From positions 1-36,274 of IMG/VR virus record IMGVR_UViG_3300037102_000108: DNA of 36,274 nt; one strand, given 5' to 3'. Position numbers and translations under genes: made by a program. Below are positions 1,897-36,215 of the stretch, piece by piece. Source of the DNA: a virus. Numbering within the stretch: position 1 is the first letter of the stretch; each line of letters starts with the position of its first letter. A model generated the notes under the pieces. The model had not been told where the DNA came from. It ran no database searches and saw only the letters and a program-made list of their open reading frames with translations.

Positions 1897-2858
1897 GCCA
1901 CGGCCTCAACTTTCTCGGCAATATCGTCCTGCGCGGCCAGTCCTTCGCGTATCTCGCGAACGGCGGCCATCAAACGGCCGATGCTGATGTAGCGCTGGGT
2001 TTTGCGGTCCACGCGGACTGCGATGGTGGCCAGCTCAATCTGCTGGCGGATCAGCGCGGAGTCGAGCGTGAGGCTGGACAATTCCGACTTCAGGATGCCC
2101 GCGGCCTCGTCGGCGGTGATGGCGGGCAGCGTGATCTTGTCGCTGATGCGGCGCTCCAGTTGCTCCAGCGTGCCGGCGAAGCGAGCGAATATCCTGTCAA
2201 GCTCGTGGCTGCCCGCAAAGCAGAGGGAGAAGCGCGGATCTTCATCGAGCAGCTCGCGGACAACCTCGAAGCAATCGATGGAGAGGTGCTGCGCCTCGTC
2301 GAAGTAAAGAACCACGCGCGCCCCGCGAAAATCGAAGCGGAGGTTATGAATCGCGCGGTCGATGGCCGTATCCGATTGCGTTCCGCAGGCGGTGGCCACG
2401 CGCTTCATCAGGTCGCGGGGCGAGATGCGCGCGCGGCAATAGACGCGGAAGATGAATGTCTTCTGAGCGGCTGCGCGCTGGGCGTTGTGCTCGGCAATCA
2501 GGTAGCGGGATACGTCCGTCTTGCCCGAGCCAGGCGGGGCATAAACCATGTAAACTTGCGGCCGCTCCAACAGCCGGGCGAAGACGCCGCGCATGGCGCG
2601 CACAGTGCCGGTCTCGTAGATCTGCGTTGCGAATGGGGCTTCTGGCTCTACCGGGGTGTTTGCGACAAAGCCGGTGATGGCCGCGCAGATGCGCGAGGAG
2701 TTGGTGATGTTGCTGTAGTGGCCGTTCATGAACTGCGCGAGGGTGTTCGGCGAGTAGCCGATTCTCCGCGCGAAGTCCACCGGCGACATGCCGCTGCGAA
2801 TCATGAAGTCGGACGCGAGCCGCTGTGCCTGCGCCGATGTCTGTGTTTGGTCGATCAT
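1893..2858 (-). CDS. MuB-like transposition target ATPase (AAA)
   Basis: A 321-residue ATPase. It has an N-terminal Cro/XRE-type helix-turn-helix (about residues 20-48), as MuB has, then an AAA ATPase domain with Walker A APPGSGKT (107-114) and Walker B VVLYFDEAQ (182-190). In Mu this protein binds target DNA non-specifically as an ATP-dependent filament, delivers it to the transpososome, stimulates MuA and gives target immunity. Length is close to that of MuB (312). It overlaps the transposase gene by four bases (ATGA), so the two subunits are translationally coupled. The family call is secure. Confidence 0.93.
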   Translation of the reverse strand: MIDQTQTSAQAQRLASDFMIRSGMSPVDFARRIGYSPNTLAQFMNGHYSNITNSSRICAAITGFVANTPVEPEAPFATQIYETGTVRAMRGVFARLLERPQVYMVYAPPGSGKTDVSRYLIAEHNAQRAAAQKTFIFRVYCRARISPRDLMKRVATACGTQSDTAIDRAIHNLRFDFRGARVVLYFDEAQHLSIDCFEVVRELLDEDPRFSLCFAGSHELDRIFARFAGTLEQLERRISDKITLPAITADEAAGILKSELSSLTLDSALIRQQIELATIAVRVDRKTQRYISIGRLMAAVREIREGLAAQDDIAEKVEAVA

Positions 2859-4714
2859 GCTTTCTGTCTCTCCAAAAAGATGCGTGCGGCCTCTGCCGGC
2901 GTCGCTGGCCGGTTCGAGGGTTGATTGTCAGGGGACAGTTTTGCGAGGTGGGGATTGCGCTGGGTAATTACGTCAGAAATATCGGTATCGGCGGGGAGTT
3001 GCAGCCGCCGGGCCATTTGCTCCAGCGGCGAGAGCGCGCCATTTTGCCGCGCAACCAGGCTGATTGTGCCCAGCGCTTCGCGCGTCTGCTTTTCCAGGTG
3101 GCGGCGCTGCCTCATGCTCTCGGAGATCAGCGACTGTGTGTGCGGGTCGCTGGGCGCGAAGCGCACGAGTTCCTCGCTTTGAAGGGCGCAGATAAAGTTG
3201 CCGTCGAGATCGAGCGCGGCGGCGTCTTCCGGCGCGCCTGGCTCGTAGGCGATCAGGATGTCGCACTGATTCAAGTTGTGCAGCGCGGCGAAGCCGGCCT
3301 GGTCAGCGGGCACGTAGCGGCGATTGTTCAAACGAACAGCACATTCCTGAACGATTCTGCGCTCGTGTTCCGCCATTAAAAGAGCGAGTGTCGCCGGATC
3401 GGGCGCGGGACGCTGGTTGGGGTTGAGATTGTTTTCAAATACCTGGCGCGGTGTCCCGCCGTCCATGCCAATTCCCGTGTGAGGCGAATCCGCATATTCC
3501 TCCATCCAGGCCAGGCAGGCGCCGATGAAGACTGAAGCCTTGGGATGCTTCGACTCGGCAACGCGGCCATGGCGGGTCAGCTTGCGGTGTTCCATCATCG
3601 CGAGTGAAGTGGAATCGGGACGCGTGAAGGGGCTGCCTGTGGTGTATGTCGGCCAGCATTTATCGAAGTGCTCGTGGACGGTGCCCCAGAAGCGCTCTAT
3701 GTGCTTCGCCTGCCCGTGATAAGGCGCGCAATGCGTTAAGGCAGTCCCCACGCGCGCCAGAAAGCCGGTGGCCTCGATGGACTCAAGCTCAGCCTTGCGC
3801 CAATCCTGCGGCGCCAGTGGCGACTCCATCATGTAGCCGGGGGTCGCGCCTTTGCCCACCTTGCGATAATCCTTGCCGTTGTCAACGTAGACACATTCGG
3901 GAGGGCCGTACTTCGTAATGCCGCGGCGCATGGCGGCGGCGATAGAGCGCGAGCTGCCTTCCCAGCACCAGCTCGCGCCCATCGGCATCCGCGAGCGATA
4001 GTCGAGCCATCCGGTGAGCCGTATGCGGACCGGCGAACCCCACTCGACATTCGAGAAGCAATCGTTGGCGCACTCCACGTCGTGGATCATGTGATCCCCA
4101 ACCCACACAGCGTTGGCGTACACGTCGGTGAAGCCGCGCGTCAGATAGGGGCTCATGCGTTCCTGGTATGCTTTGCGGCCTTCACGGGCATAGACGACGA
4201 GCGACGGCGGCATGGATTTTAACCACGCTCTCACCGTCTCGTATGAAGGCAAATCTTCTTGGGGGACTTCGATCATTTCGCGGTTGCTCACGATGTTCTC
4301 GTGGGCGACGCGGCAGGACATGCGCTGGTCCAAAAAAAGAAATGCGGCGAGCCACGCGGCCCGAGGATAGGCCTCGAAGAATCTTGAAGTGTGCGCGTCT
4401 TTTCGTTTACGGTCAGCCAGCGCCGCAAAGCCGCCTGCCTTGTATGCGCGCAGCCAGTTGTAGAGCGTGCCTCGGGAGATGCTGTGCGCTTCGGCGGCGT
4501 ACTCCACCATCAGGGACGCGCTCGTGACAGGCGTTCCATCTCGCAGTTGCAGACGGCCAAACCGCGCGGGATCGCGTTGATATTCCAGAATCTGCTGCAC
4601 GACGGCGAGCCGCTGGGAGGCTTGCTCCTGGTCTCGCGGCGAGGGCAGCAAAATTCGCTGAGGCGAAGCAACAGGCACGGACATCGGCAAGCAAATCGAG
4701 AGTTGAGTGCTCAA
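2855..4714 (-). CDS. MuA-like DDE transposase
   Basis: A 619-residue transposase that would cut the prophage ends and join them to target DNA for integration and replicative transposition. The catalytic triad is visible in three motifs: D207 in WVGDHMIHD, D278 in YVDNGKDYR, and E340 in GQAKHIERFWG, the last closely matching MuA's own motif. An N-terminal helix-turn-helix (about 75-95, ISRGTLYNWLRAYKAGG) would bind end sites. The C-terminal region is basic and would contact the MuB-like ATPase. The start is a TTG overlapping the upstream stop, with AAGGGG about 6 bases before it. An ATG ten codons in is the alternative. Confidence 0.93.
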   Translation of the reverse strand: MSTQLSICLPMSVPVASPQRILLPSPRDQEQASQRLAVVQQILEYQRDPARFGRLQLRDGTPVTSASLMVEYAAEAHSISRGTLYNWLRAYKAGGFAALADRKRKDAHTSRFFEAYPRAAWLAAFLFLDQRMSCRVAHENIVSNREMIEVPQEDLPSYETVRAWLKSMPPSLVVYAREGRKAYQERMSPYLTRGFTDVYANAVWVGDHMIHDVECANDCFSNVEWGSPVRIRLTGWLDYRSRMPMGASWCWEGSSRSIAAAMRRGITKYGPPECVYVDNGKDYRKVGKGATPGYMMESPLAPQDWRKAELESIEATGFLARVGTALTHCAPYHGQAKHIERFWGTVHEHFDKCWPTYTTGSPFTRPDSTSLAMMEHRKLTRHGRVAESKHPKASVFIGACLAWMEEYADSPHTGIGMDGGTPRQVFENNLNPNQRPAPDPATLALLMAEHERRIVQECAVRLNNRRYVPADQAGFAALHNLNQCDILIAYEPGAPEDAAALDLDGNFICALQSEELVRFAPSDPHTQSLISESMRQRRHLEKQTREALGTISLVARQNGALSPLEQMARRLQLPADTDISDVITQRNPHLAKLSPDNQPSNRPATPAEAARIFLERQKA

Positions 4715-34494: not shown

Positions 34495-34588
34495 CCATGG
34501 TTGTGCGCCTCACTTGCCAGCTAAGCTACCGGCAGAGTTATGCGTTTTCTATCATCATTTTGAGGGCGGATGCGGCGGTTCATTTTTG

Positions 34589-34769
34589 GGGAATTACATG
34601 CTTGACTCTCTGGCCAGCGCAAAGAGGGATGACACAATGCGAAAGGAAGGAATTCACAGCCGAAAGGGGACGGATAAACGCCTCATGGGTGCCGTCAACG
34701 GTGAAACTGATGAATTTCTGGGAGCAAGTAACTTCACTTTGCATTCAGGGAGTCAAGCATGTAATTCCC
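34589..34769. mobile_element. MITE-like element, copy 1
   Basis: A 181-bp element with inverted ends GGGAATTACATGCTTGACTC, 23 of 24 bases matching between left end and complement of right end (the next four are TCTG and CCTG). It encodes no transposase or convincing protein. It differs from copy 2 at two positions, so it is a recent duplicate of the same unit. Confidence 0.8.
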
Positions 34770-34790
34770 AAAGTGCGAGAGATTCACGAT

Positions 34791-34978
34791 ATGGAGCGCC
34801 AGATTAAAGAGCGGCAGGTGAAGCTGATGTTCGACCCTCGCAAGTATTGGACACGATAACGGATGTGGTGCTGGCCTACCGGCCAAAACCGAAGACGAAA
34901 GCACAGAAAAATCGGAAGCGGAAGGAGAAGAAACTTGGCGACCATCCATCAATCTCAACTCATGCCCCAAGACAATAA
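34791..34978 (+). pseudogene. frameshifted small basic protein gene (possible)
   Basis: An ATG opens MERQIKERQVKLMFDPRK and then meets TAA after four more codons. Shifting by -1 after the lysine codon at 34842-34844 keeps the frame open as VLDTITDVVLAYRPKPKTKA and a very basic RKRKEKK tail, ending at 34978 inside the methyltransferase start. The two halves read naturally as one protein. It may be a broken gene, a programmed shift or a sequence error. I recall similar PKPK-rich short proteins in Acidobacteria, but this is not checked. Confidence 0.35.
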
Positions 34979-35417
34979 GTTCCATCAGGGCAACGGGGAG
35001 GACGGCAAACATTATTGGCTGACTCCCCCAGCCCTCTATGCCGAACTTGACGCGGAATTTCACTTTGATTTTGACCCGTGTCCCTGTCCATTGCCAGAGG
35101 GATTCGACGGCCTCACATGCGAATGGGGCCAGTCCAACTATGTCAACCCGCCGTTTGGATCCATCATCCATCAAGGCAAGAAGAAAGGCCCGACCGCATG
35201 GGTTCGCAAGGCCATCGAAGAGCAAGCCAAAGGGAAGCGGGTTGTACTTGTCTACCCCGTCGATAAATGGGTACTGATGATTCTCTCTGTCATCGGGACG
35301 AAGGTTCGTAATCTTGGTGACGTGCGATGGTTCGCCGTTGAAGATGGTTCGCAGGGCAAAGGAACAGGCAGGCATATCGCATGTTTCATCTTGGAGCCGG
35401 GGTGCTGTCCGCGATGA
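34935..35417 (+). CDS. phage-type DNA N6-adenine methyltransferase
   Basis: A 160-residue protein of the phage Dam family (PF05869). It has HYWLTPPALYAELDAEFHFD (about 25-44), FDPCPCP, and the catalytic NPPFG motif (about 70-74, in SNYVNPPFGS), then VRKAIEEQAKGKRVVLVYPV. The family adds a methyl group to adenine N6 using SAM, often to guard phage DNA against restriction. The start is a TTG with AGGAG seven bases before it. An ATG nine codons in is an alternative. The stop overlaps the next small gene (ATGA). It lies inside the MITE-bounded unit. Confidence 0.85.
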   Translation: MATIHQSQLMPQDNKFHQGNGEDGKHYWLTPPALYAELDAEFHFDFDPCPCPLPEGFDGLTCEWGQSNYVNPPFGSIIHQGKKKGPTAWVRKAIEEQAKGKRVVLVYPVDKWVLMILSVIGTKVRNLGDVRWFAVEDGSQGKGTGRHIACFILEPGCCPR

Positions 35418-35548
35418 ATCGGTTTGCATCGAGCGTGCGCAGCGGGGAGATCGATAGCATCACGATCTCGACGGATGGCATGGAGCCGGTGGTCATCGAC
35501 AAGGCGGCGGCCGAAAACATCCACCGCCGCGCGAAGAAGAAAAGGTAA
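35414..35548 (+). CDS. 44-residue basic protein coupled to the methyltransferase
   Basis: A short gene whose ATG overlaps the methyltransferase stop (ATGA). The protein runs MNRFASSVRSGEIDSITIST to a basic end RRAKKKR. A short beta segment and a basic helix are all that can be seen. The coupling suggests it acts with, or regulates, the methyltransferase. The 216 bases after it, up to the second MITE copy, hold no gene, only an imperfect palindrome around GTTCAGTTATCAGTGAAC (35705-35722). Confidence 0.5.
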   Translation: MNRFASSVRSGEIDSITISTDGMEPVVIDKAAAENIHRRAKKKR

Positions 35549-35764
35549 CAAGTTTCCGCGCCGGAGTGCGAGCTACGGTGCGGCGAGTGCGCGGTGGATC
35601 GGCGCTCTGGGAGATCGGCCAGACTTGAGCCTATAGACCTCAGAGTTAGCGGACGAGCCAAGCCAGCGATGAAATCCGCATCGCCGCGCACGACGAAAAA
35701 CAGGGTTCAGTTATCAGTGAACAGTGGTCAGTCGGGAGCGAGTTATGTCAGGCATCAAGATTTT

Positions 35765-35945
35765 GGGAATTACATGCTTGACTCTCTGGCCAGCGCAAAG
35801 AGGGATGACACAATGCGAAAGGAAGGAATTCACAGCCGAAAGGGGACGGATAAACGCCTCATGGGTGCCGTCAACGGTGAAACTGATGAATTTCTGGGAG
35901 CAAGTAACTTCACTTTGCATTCAGAGAGTCAAGTATGTAATTCCC
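35765..35945. mobile_element. MITE-like element, copy 2
   Basis: 181 bp, in the same orientation as copy 1 and identical except two positions near the right end. It has the same inverted ends, 23 of 24 matching. Its right flank CATTTTTG equals the left flank of copy 1. Confidence 0.8.
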
Positions 35946-36066
35946 CATTTTTGGGCTAACTGGAGGCGGCAGCCGGGAGGCGTTTCGGATACCTGGCCAG
36001 CCCTGGCGTTTTGCAGGCAGCTCTGAGGCGGTTTTAGTCGCCTTTCAAGCCTATGGAAAATGGAAT

Positions 36067-36131
36067 ATTGCACTCTTTTTCCACAGCTTGAGAAAACCAG
36101 TGCAATCTAATTCCTGTATTCAGTGCAATCA
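36067..36131. promoter_or_regulatory. three GTGCAAT boxes, possible transposase-binding sites of the right phage end
   Basis: CAGTGCAATC occurs at 36098-36107 and again at 36121-36130, 23 bases apart. GAGTGCAAT occurs in the opposite orientation at 36075-36067. Mu's right end carries neighbouring transposase sites about 22 bases apart, which the first two resemble. The precise phage-host junction is not identifiable without the left end or an empty site. 35954-36274 holds no gene I can support. Confidence 0.35.
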
Positions 36132-36215
36132 AACGGCTGCAGCCACAGCACGGGGCTTTTGTGCGTGGACCGGCTCTGCAAAAAGCCATAAAAAGCTGTA
36201 GATAGGTGGAGCTAT

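Follow-up and report, generated by a model that had tools for sequence, protein, structure and literature searches.

The route by which accessory genes enter phage genomes is often unknown. Here we ask how a Dam-type DNA methyltransferase gene came to lie between two nearly identical 181-bp elements close to the right-hand terminus of a Mu-like phage. At this locus the footprint of entry is legible: the ends are defined, the target is duplicated over 8 bp, a close relative has the site empty, and relatives of the methyltransferase occur in simple elements on other contigs. The window, i.e. the whole stretch of 36,274 nucleotides that was analysed, is virus record IMGVR_UViG_3300037102_000108. 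It encodes a Mu-type transposase at 2855-4714 (PHROGs match to phrog_310, 8.7e-81). Of 200 genomes from the family to which a Granulicella assembly belongs, 21 had relatives of this transposase, and the top three showed 46-50% identity; an acidobacterial host is therefore likely.

Structure of the unit and its insertion site

An earlier note on this DNA had described two 181-bp copies in direct orientation, 179 of 181 positions identical, around a methyltransferase, and both coordinates and alignment agree with that description (Table 1). The two mismatches between the copies (34749/35925 and 34758/35934) fall inside the right inverted end, and the 24-bp inverted ends of each copy are 96% complementary within the copy. 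Being short, with inverted ends and without a transposase, the element corresponds to the description of a MITE. The virus record contains just these two copies. GC content is lower in the unit (49% in the miniature element and 55% in the cargo) than in the whole window (60%). The location proposed for the unit, past the last tail genes and before the right end of the Mu-like phage, likewise fits the data, as the conservation among three related phages ends near 36147, approximately 195 bp past the unit; host DNA presumably follows from there.

Table 1. Features of the unit and its surroundings, in window coordinates
Feature	Position	Strand	Remarks
Left 8-bp target duplication, CATTTTTG	34581..34588	.	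single in the empty site of L123
Left 181-bp miniature element	34589..34769	+	24-bp IS1595-type inverted ends
Small basic ORF, 43 aa	34847..34978	+	TTG start assumed; homologous to the transposase-adjacent ORF of IS1595-type elements
DNA N-6-adenine methyltransferase, Dam type, 160 aa	34935..35417	+	PF05869
44-aa ORF	35414..35548	+	overlaps the methyltransferase stop (ATGA)
Right 181-bp miniature element	35765..35945	+	24-bp inverted ends
Right 8-bp target duplication, CATTTTTG	35946..35953	.	identical to the left one
Conserved right end of the Mu-like phage	36057..36147	+	alignment with L123, L124 and L126; outside the unit

The match between the flanks was said to be restricted to the outer 8 bp, and this is the case: CATTTTTG is present on both sides, and the inner flanks, AAAGTGCG and AAGATTTT, differ. 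The unit thus has the form of a composite or pseudo-compound transposon, in which direct copies bracket the cargo and the duplication is found outside only, and at the same time that of a mobile insertion cassette, with a passenger, inverted ends, a target duplication and no transposase. The predicted empty site, TTCATTTTTGGGCTAAC, was found with one CATTTTTG in a related viral contig (L123, IMGVR_UViG_3300037148_000062), which shares 97% identity with the window phage in the neighbouring protein and lacks the entire cargo along with the 181-bp copies. Because of this empty site, the unit at 34589-35945 is interpreted as a single insertion with an 8-bp duplication, and together with the contrast between outer and inner flanks it supports the proposal of a composite built from two non-autonomous elements. 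An exact search with the right flank and one CATTTTTG returned three contigs, two filled and identical to the window across the compared stretches, and one, L123, on which the empty state rests. The unit was not found at a second site in a core-pattern search of viral contigs.

Two other histories of the paired copies were considered. Both copies might have inserted independently around a methyltransferase already resident in the phage, and each does possess complete ends. Such events predict a separate duplication for every copy, which disagrees with the matching outer and differing inner flanks, and the relative without the copies is also without the cargo. This candidate was rejected on the flanks and the empty site and is, in our judgement, very improbable. 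Alternatively, a single 181-bp copy may have settled at CATTTTTG, and a circle of one copy and the cargo may later have recombined into it. This would likewise produce a duplication on the outside only, inner flanks that do not match and copies that are almost identical, and PMC12561309 describes such a translocatable-unit route for pseudo-compound transposons. Its single-copy intermediate would be a lone element at CATTTTTG, an arrangement that the earlier note had regarded as a sign of independent insertions; none occurred among the three right-flank contigs (two filled, one empty), few as these are. We consider the circle route unlikely, if worth keeping in mind.

The 181-bp element in other genomes

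Only four viral contigs contained the core pattern of the 181-bp element, two belonging to the window phage and two (L018 and L019) to another. The copy in the latter is a diverged homologue, with a core alignment score of 9 compared with a mean of -28 for shuffled sequences (s.d. 5.8, best shuffle -8). The L019 copy lies near the contig edge (L019:14-194) with unmatched flanks, and may be the end of another composite, carried by a different phage. In none of the four contigs did a lone copy have matching flanks, so that movement of the 181-bp element by itself is hypothetical. No match was obtained in 200 genomes of the family of the Granulicella assembly, in a search that scored few candidates per genome and whose emptiness is uninformative; the core was not found in 298 genomes of the order, nor was there a blastn match to the element in phage or plasmid collections. 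A function as RNA was rejected, as matches to Rfam stayed below gathering scores and were all to eukaryotic families; the predicted fold of the core, too, was no better than that of shuffled sequences (z -1.04 and 0.07).

Genes carried by the unit

The start of the methyltransferase (TTG, 34935) was chosen by alignment to relatives. The product matches PF05869 (1.1e-6, 28.9 bits) and passes the cut-off of 28.1 narrowly, Dam relatives from loci L038 and L034 scoring slightly under it; a longer reading from ATG matches phrog_111 (1.2e-17). It is likely a putative DNA-modifying, Dam-type N6-adenine methyltransferase, which, as its family suggests, would most likely shield phage DNA against host restriction. 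The 44-aa ORF had no convincing relative among the loci compared (best other E 0.74), and no Pfam match up to E 0.1 was obtained with the small basic ORF. A 31-aa peptide upstream of the small ORF was considered as a transposase remnant and discarded, without a convincing relative outside the window phage (best other E 1.4).

The organisation of this cargo can be compared with the 1649-bp element of locus L034, which has the order transposase, small basic ORF, Dam. The window unit keeps the small ORF followed by the methyltransferase, without the transposase; its small ORF is 55% identical to the L034 homologue and its Dam enzyme is 82% identical to the L034 passenger over 155 aa. Because this order is shared, the window cargo seems to be a piece of an IS1595-type transposon, bracketed anew by two miniature relatives. 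Homologues of the small ORF are present in 51 of 56 transposase-bearing elements of the collected set, and in 14 of 14 whose positions were checked the ORF lies downstream of the transposase; a fifteenth, L115, is without it. The ORF (L034:2790-2918 and homologues) is 35-45 aa long, rich in lysine and arginine, and of the type LDAIxDxVLxYRPKPK, and the L034 copy had no match in Pfam or NCBIfam. Among 77 stretches upstream of Dam that were tested, only those of L034 and the window phage contained it; a match of 16 residues in L050 was taken as chance. The homology of the small ORF to that of transposase-bearing elements suggests that the window module was probably IS1595 cargo already, and descent from an element of the L034 plan would be the simplest reading. 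Descent from L034 itself is not claimed, since most Dam relatives lie outside such elements and the tree leaves the cassette-borne enzymes ungrouped.

Dam relatives were located between such ends with an exact duplication in seven of 80 loci, i.e. in two records of the window phage and in L032, L034, L038, L039 and L052. Leaving the window phage aside, these are five loci and four distinct elements, L038 and L039 being one and the same. In L052 the relative is enclosed by variant ends of the GGTACTGACATACTTGGCTCAC type with an exact 8-bp duplication (L052:6120-6627), an end subtype outside the 132-element scan described below. In a hand-picked subset of 56 of the 80 loci, the best-scoring flanks of L061 and L071 matched over 8 bp without any end-like sequence, and both were taken as chance. 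In the tree of Dam enzymes, those of the window and L032 are sisters (95/77). A common origin of the cassette-borne enzymes was rejected, as they are ungrouped and the tree needs five changes, equal to shuffled labels.

These data bear on a further alternative, namely that the methyltransferase locus is of the ordinary phage kind and is associated with IS1595 elements by coincidence. It would accord with the 73 of 80 Dam-relative loci that are outside any such element by this test and with the lack of clustering in the tree. It would leave unexplained why a homologue of the small ORF, so common next to IS1595-type transposases, stands directly upstream of the window Dam, as it does in L034, and we regard coincidence as quite improbable.

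IS1595-type ends and the absent transposase

The earlier note had proposed a search for full-length insertion sequences with the same ends; elements with ends of the same type exist and encode an IS1595 transposase (L109 and L034). The L109 protein contains PF12762 (DDE_Tnp_IS1595, 2.3e-46) and PF12760 (zinc-ribbon, 1.2e-8), both of which were also matched in that of L034, and NF033547 was matched by L034 (2.4e-58) and L177 (1.7e-57). Elements with ends of this type and an IS1595 transposase have exact 8-bp duplications. The family was reportedly founded in a 2009 paper by Siguier and colleagues. A target duplication of 8 bp is the usual size in IS1595 (PMC8101967). Judged by the elements that share this type of ends, the transposase family missing from the window is IS1595.

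The note had also stated that a transposase for the unit is absent from the window, and indeed no IS1595 transposase is present there (best tblastn E 2.4); the unit does not encode a transposase of its own and in this respect is no IS1595 insertion sequence. Elsewhere, relatives of any kind of the L034 transposase occur in 197 of 298 genomes from the order that includes the Granulicella assembly, and the matches listed include eight near-full-length relatives with 60-70% identity. The end pattern is rare in the likely host family, with eight matches in five of 200 genomes. Sequence relatives of this kind indicate that a candidate source of transposase in trans exists in the likely host group. 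Among 51 loci with transposase-less elements, two (L021 and L140) had an IS1595 transposase elsewhere in the fetched stretch. With the L109 protein as the tblastn query, three of 50,697 records of isolated phages matched, so the transposase is rare there.

In the reading that we favour, the unit would be a 1357-bp non-autonomous composite (pseudo-compound) transposon, in which a Dam-type methyltransferase lies between direct 181-bp miniatures whose ends resemble those on which IS1595-family transposases act. Flanks and empty site show it inserted at CATTTTTG, close to the right end of this phage, with an 8-bp duplication, and the transposase would have been supplied in trans by a different element of the cell. 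Synteny points to a cargo that may be what is left of an older autonomous element with the order transposase, small basic ORF, methyltransferase, which would have lost its transposase and been bracketed again by miniature relatives. Several observations count against this explanation. Besides the rarity of the 181-bp element and of the end pattern in the likely host family, the single contig with the empty state, and the many Dam relatives outside such elements and ungrouped in the tree, the left inner flank AAAGTGCG has four G/C letters, and four or more were seen in just seven of 132 duplications. Taken as a whole (composite unit, transposase in trans, Dam cargo from an older IS1595 element), we nevertheless hold it to be probable.

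IS1595-type elements in the collected loci

Loci were gathered, among the matches listed, through their ends, transposase or Dam, and for this reason the counts of elements are not prevalences. Ends were defined by our own consensus with up to four mismatches per end; the label of transposase denotes a tblastn hit at 1e-5, which may be a fragment. In a first set of 102 distinct end pairs, 67 had an exact 8-bp outer match and 71 a match with at most one mismatch, compared with none of 510 comparisons in a shifted-flank control. A larger scan comprised 195 distinct end pairs, and its shifted-flank control again gave no match (0 of 965 comparisons); a later count had an exact match in 128 of 197 pairs. 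The scan yielded 132 distinct elements with 8-bp flanks matching at up to one mismatch, 126 of them exactly; the 132 include overlapping readings at L163 (three) and L175 (two). By contig, 126 of the 132 are viral and six bacterial, and the viral contigs may include misassigned bacterial DNA. An IS1595 transposase hit (tblastn) was recorded in 56 and not in the remaining 76; the median length of the latter is 532 bp. Long terminal repeats (at least 50 bp) were seen in the window unit only. Such cargo is thus usually located in simple elements, and the two-copy composite is exceptional (1 of 132 in the collected set).

A co-directional ORF of at least 60 aa outside the transposase was present in 54 of 56 transposase-bearing elements, a mechanical count in which some may be the small ORF region. 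For 33 transposase-less elements of an earlier set with distinguishable ends, the longest ORF ran from the GGGAATTAC end in 25 and in reverse in six; two had no 40-aa ORF. Of 42 elements, 16 had their insertion point within a crude gene model, versus 1781 of 2100 random points, and the cargo had the same direction as both neighbours in 20, the opposite in three and a mixed arrangement in 19 (n=42). Flanking ORFs were compared with PHROGs (85 of 90, repeats left out); the top families included DNA primase/helicase, with four members, as well as DnaB-like helicase, UvsX-like recombinase and terminase large subunit, with two each. As the flanking ORFs match phage families, at least some of the loci are real phages.

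Cargo of transposase-less elements was first analysed in a batch of 51 ORFs, all of which were used. Pfam assigned five of them to Dam and two to PAPS reductase, and several families were matched once each, including NUDIX, MazG-like, a TnpB-type protein and a further four families of DNA methylase type. The Dam cargo of L032, L034 and L038 is not independent, since these were found via the Dam search. A second batch of 69 out of 76 ORFs, repeats left out, consisted of 49 passengers of transposase-bearing elements and 20 others; Pfam matches were to N6/N4 methylase (six), C5 methylase (four) and Dam, PAPS reductase and Mom (one each), and PHROGs recognised PAPS reductase in five. DNA methyltransferases are the commonest named cargo in the collected set. 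Family matches are few relative to the 120 ORFs, and most cargo is therefore without a named Pfam family.

Some individual cassettes deserve mention. L163:477-1956 contains tandem cassettes (477-1081 and 1090-1956) with the 8-bp CTATATTG before, between and after them, as if the second had used the duplicated target of the first. In L223:2001-3178, a 382-aa ORF is enclosed by IS1595-type ends with an exact 8-bp duplication; from its length and sequence, it is likely the bearer of the single TnpB-type match (OrfB_IS605, Cas12f1-like TNB). The same small gene (MHYRNGREAKNGDK...) is found on different contigs with different 8-bp duplications (L010:3417-3723 and L027:9399-9840), and similar ORFs are present in cassettes of L182, L206 and L219, which suggests that cargo of this type moved repeatedly.

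A broader interpretation has three parts: that environmental phages share gene cassettes run by IS1595-family transposons; that autonomous elements, made up of transposase, small basic ORF and passenger, give rise to derivatives without a transposase and often with a single gene; and that these derivatives tend to settle between phage genes, in co-transcriptional orientation, and pass DNA-modification and other genes among phages. The two-copy composite of the window would then be one way of repackaging cassette cargo. Taking these parts jointly, we lean slightly towards accepting them. If the wider pattern is true, accessory genes of phages, those for DNA modification included, could be tracked as mobile cassettes, and their transfer would be testable in a two-component transposition assay. 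Paired ends with a duplication are a signature by which such cargo can be sought in viral contigs.

Comparison with known systems

Directly oriented IS copies around cargo are referred to as pseudo-compound transposons, with ISApl4/Tn7560 as a case from the IS1595 family (PMC12561309). Like the window unit, Tn7560 consists of cargo between two copies with IS1595-family ends, and its insertion sequence, ISApl4, makes AT-rich duplications that are also of 8 bp. It differs in having full insertion sequences with transposase, drug-resistance cargo and a bacterial setting, whereas the bounding copies in the window are 181 bp long and transposase-less, in a phage, with methyltransferase cargo. No outer duplication of Tn7560 itself was identified in that paper (PMC12561309); the window unit has both a duplication and an empty site.

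TIME-COMPs, as portrayed in PMC4133298 and PMC13367494, are alike in that two miniature non-autonomous copies mobilise the DNA they bracket, sometimes in direct orientation and with target duplication. The TIMEs themselves derive from Tn3, have ends of ~38 bp, duplicate 5 bp of target and have been described mainly from plasmids (PMC4133298 and PMC13367494). By its IS1595-type 24-bp ends, 8-bp duplication and phage location, the window unit falls outside the TIME-COMPs. Mobile insertion cassettes such as MIC231 and mic-qnrD share the inverted ends, target duplication and passenger without transposase, which is also the form of the transposase-less elements in our collected set; they belong to other or unknown IS families and have other cargo (PMC3913671). 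To this form the window unit adds two long terminal copies. A blaPER-1 unit of Acinetobacter johnsonii has one MITE at both ends of the cargo, which it may have mobilised, and differs in the size of the MITE (439 bp), resistance cargo and plasmid location (PMC3934969).

No IS1595-type cassettes in phages appeared among the best-ranked open-licence PubMed Central matches, which are a partial library. Pseudo-compound transposons, TIME-COMPs and mobile insertion cassettes are thus already known; the phage setting, the methyltransferase cargo and the transposase-less, MITE-bounded form of an IS1595-type unit are new.
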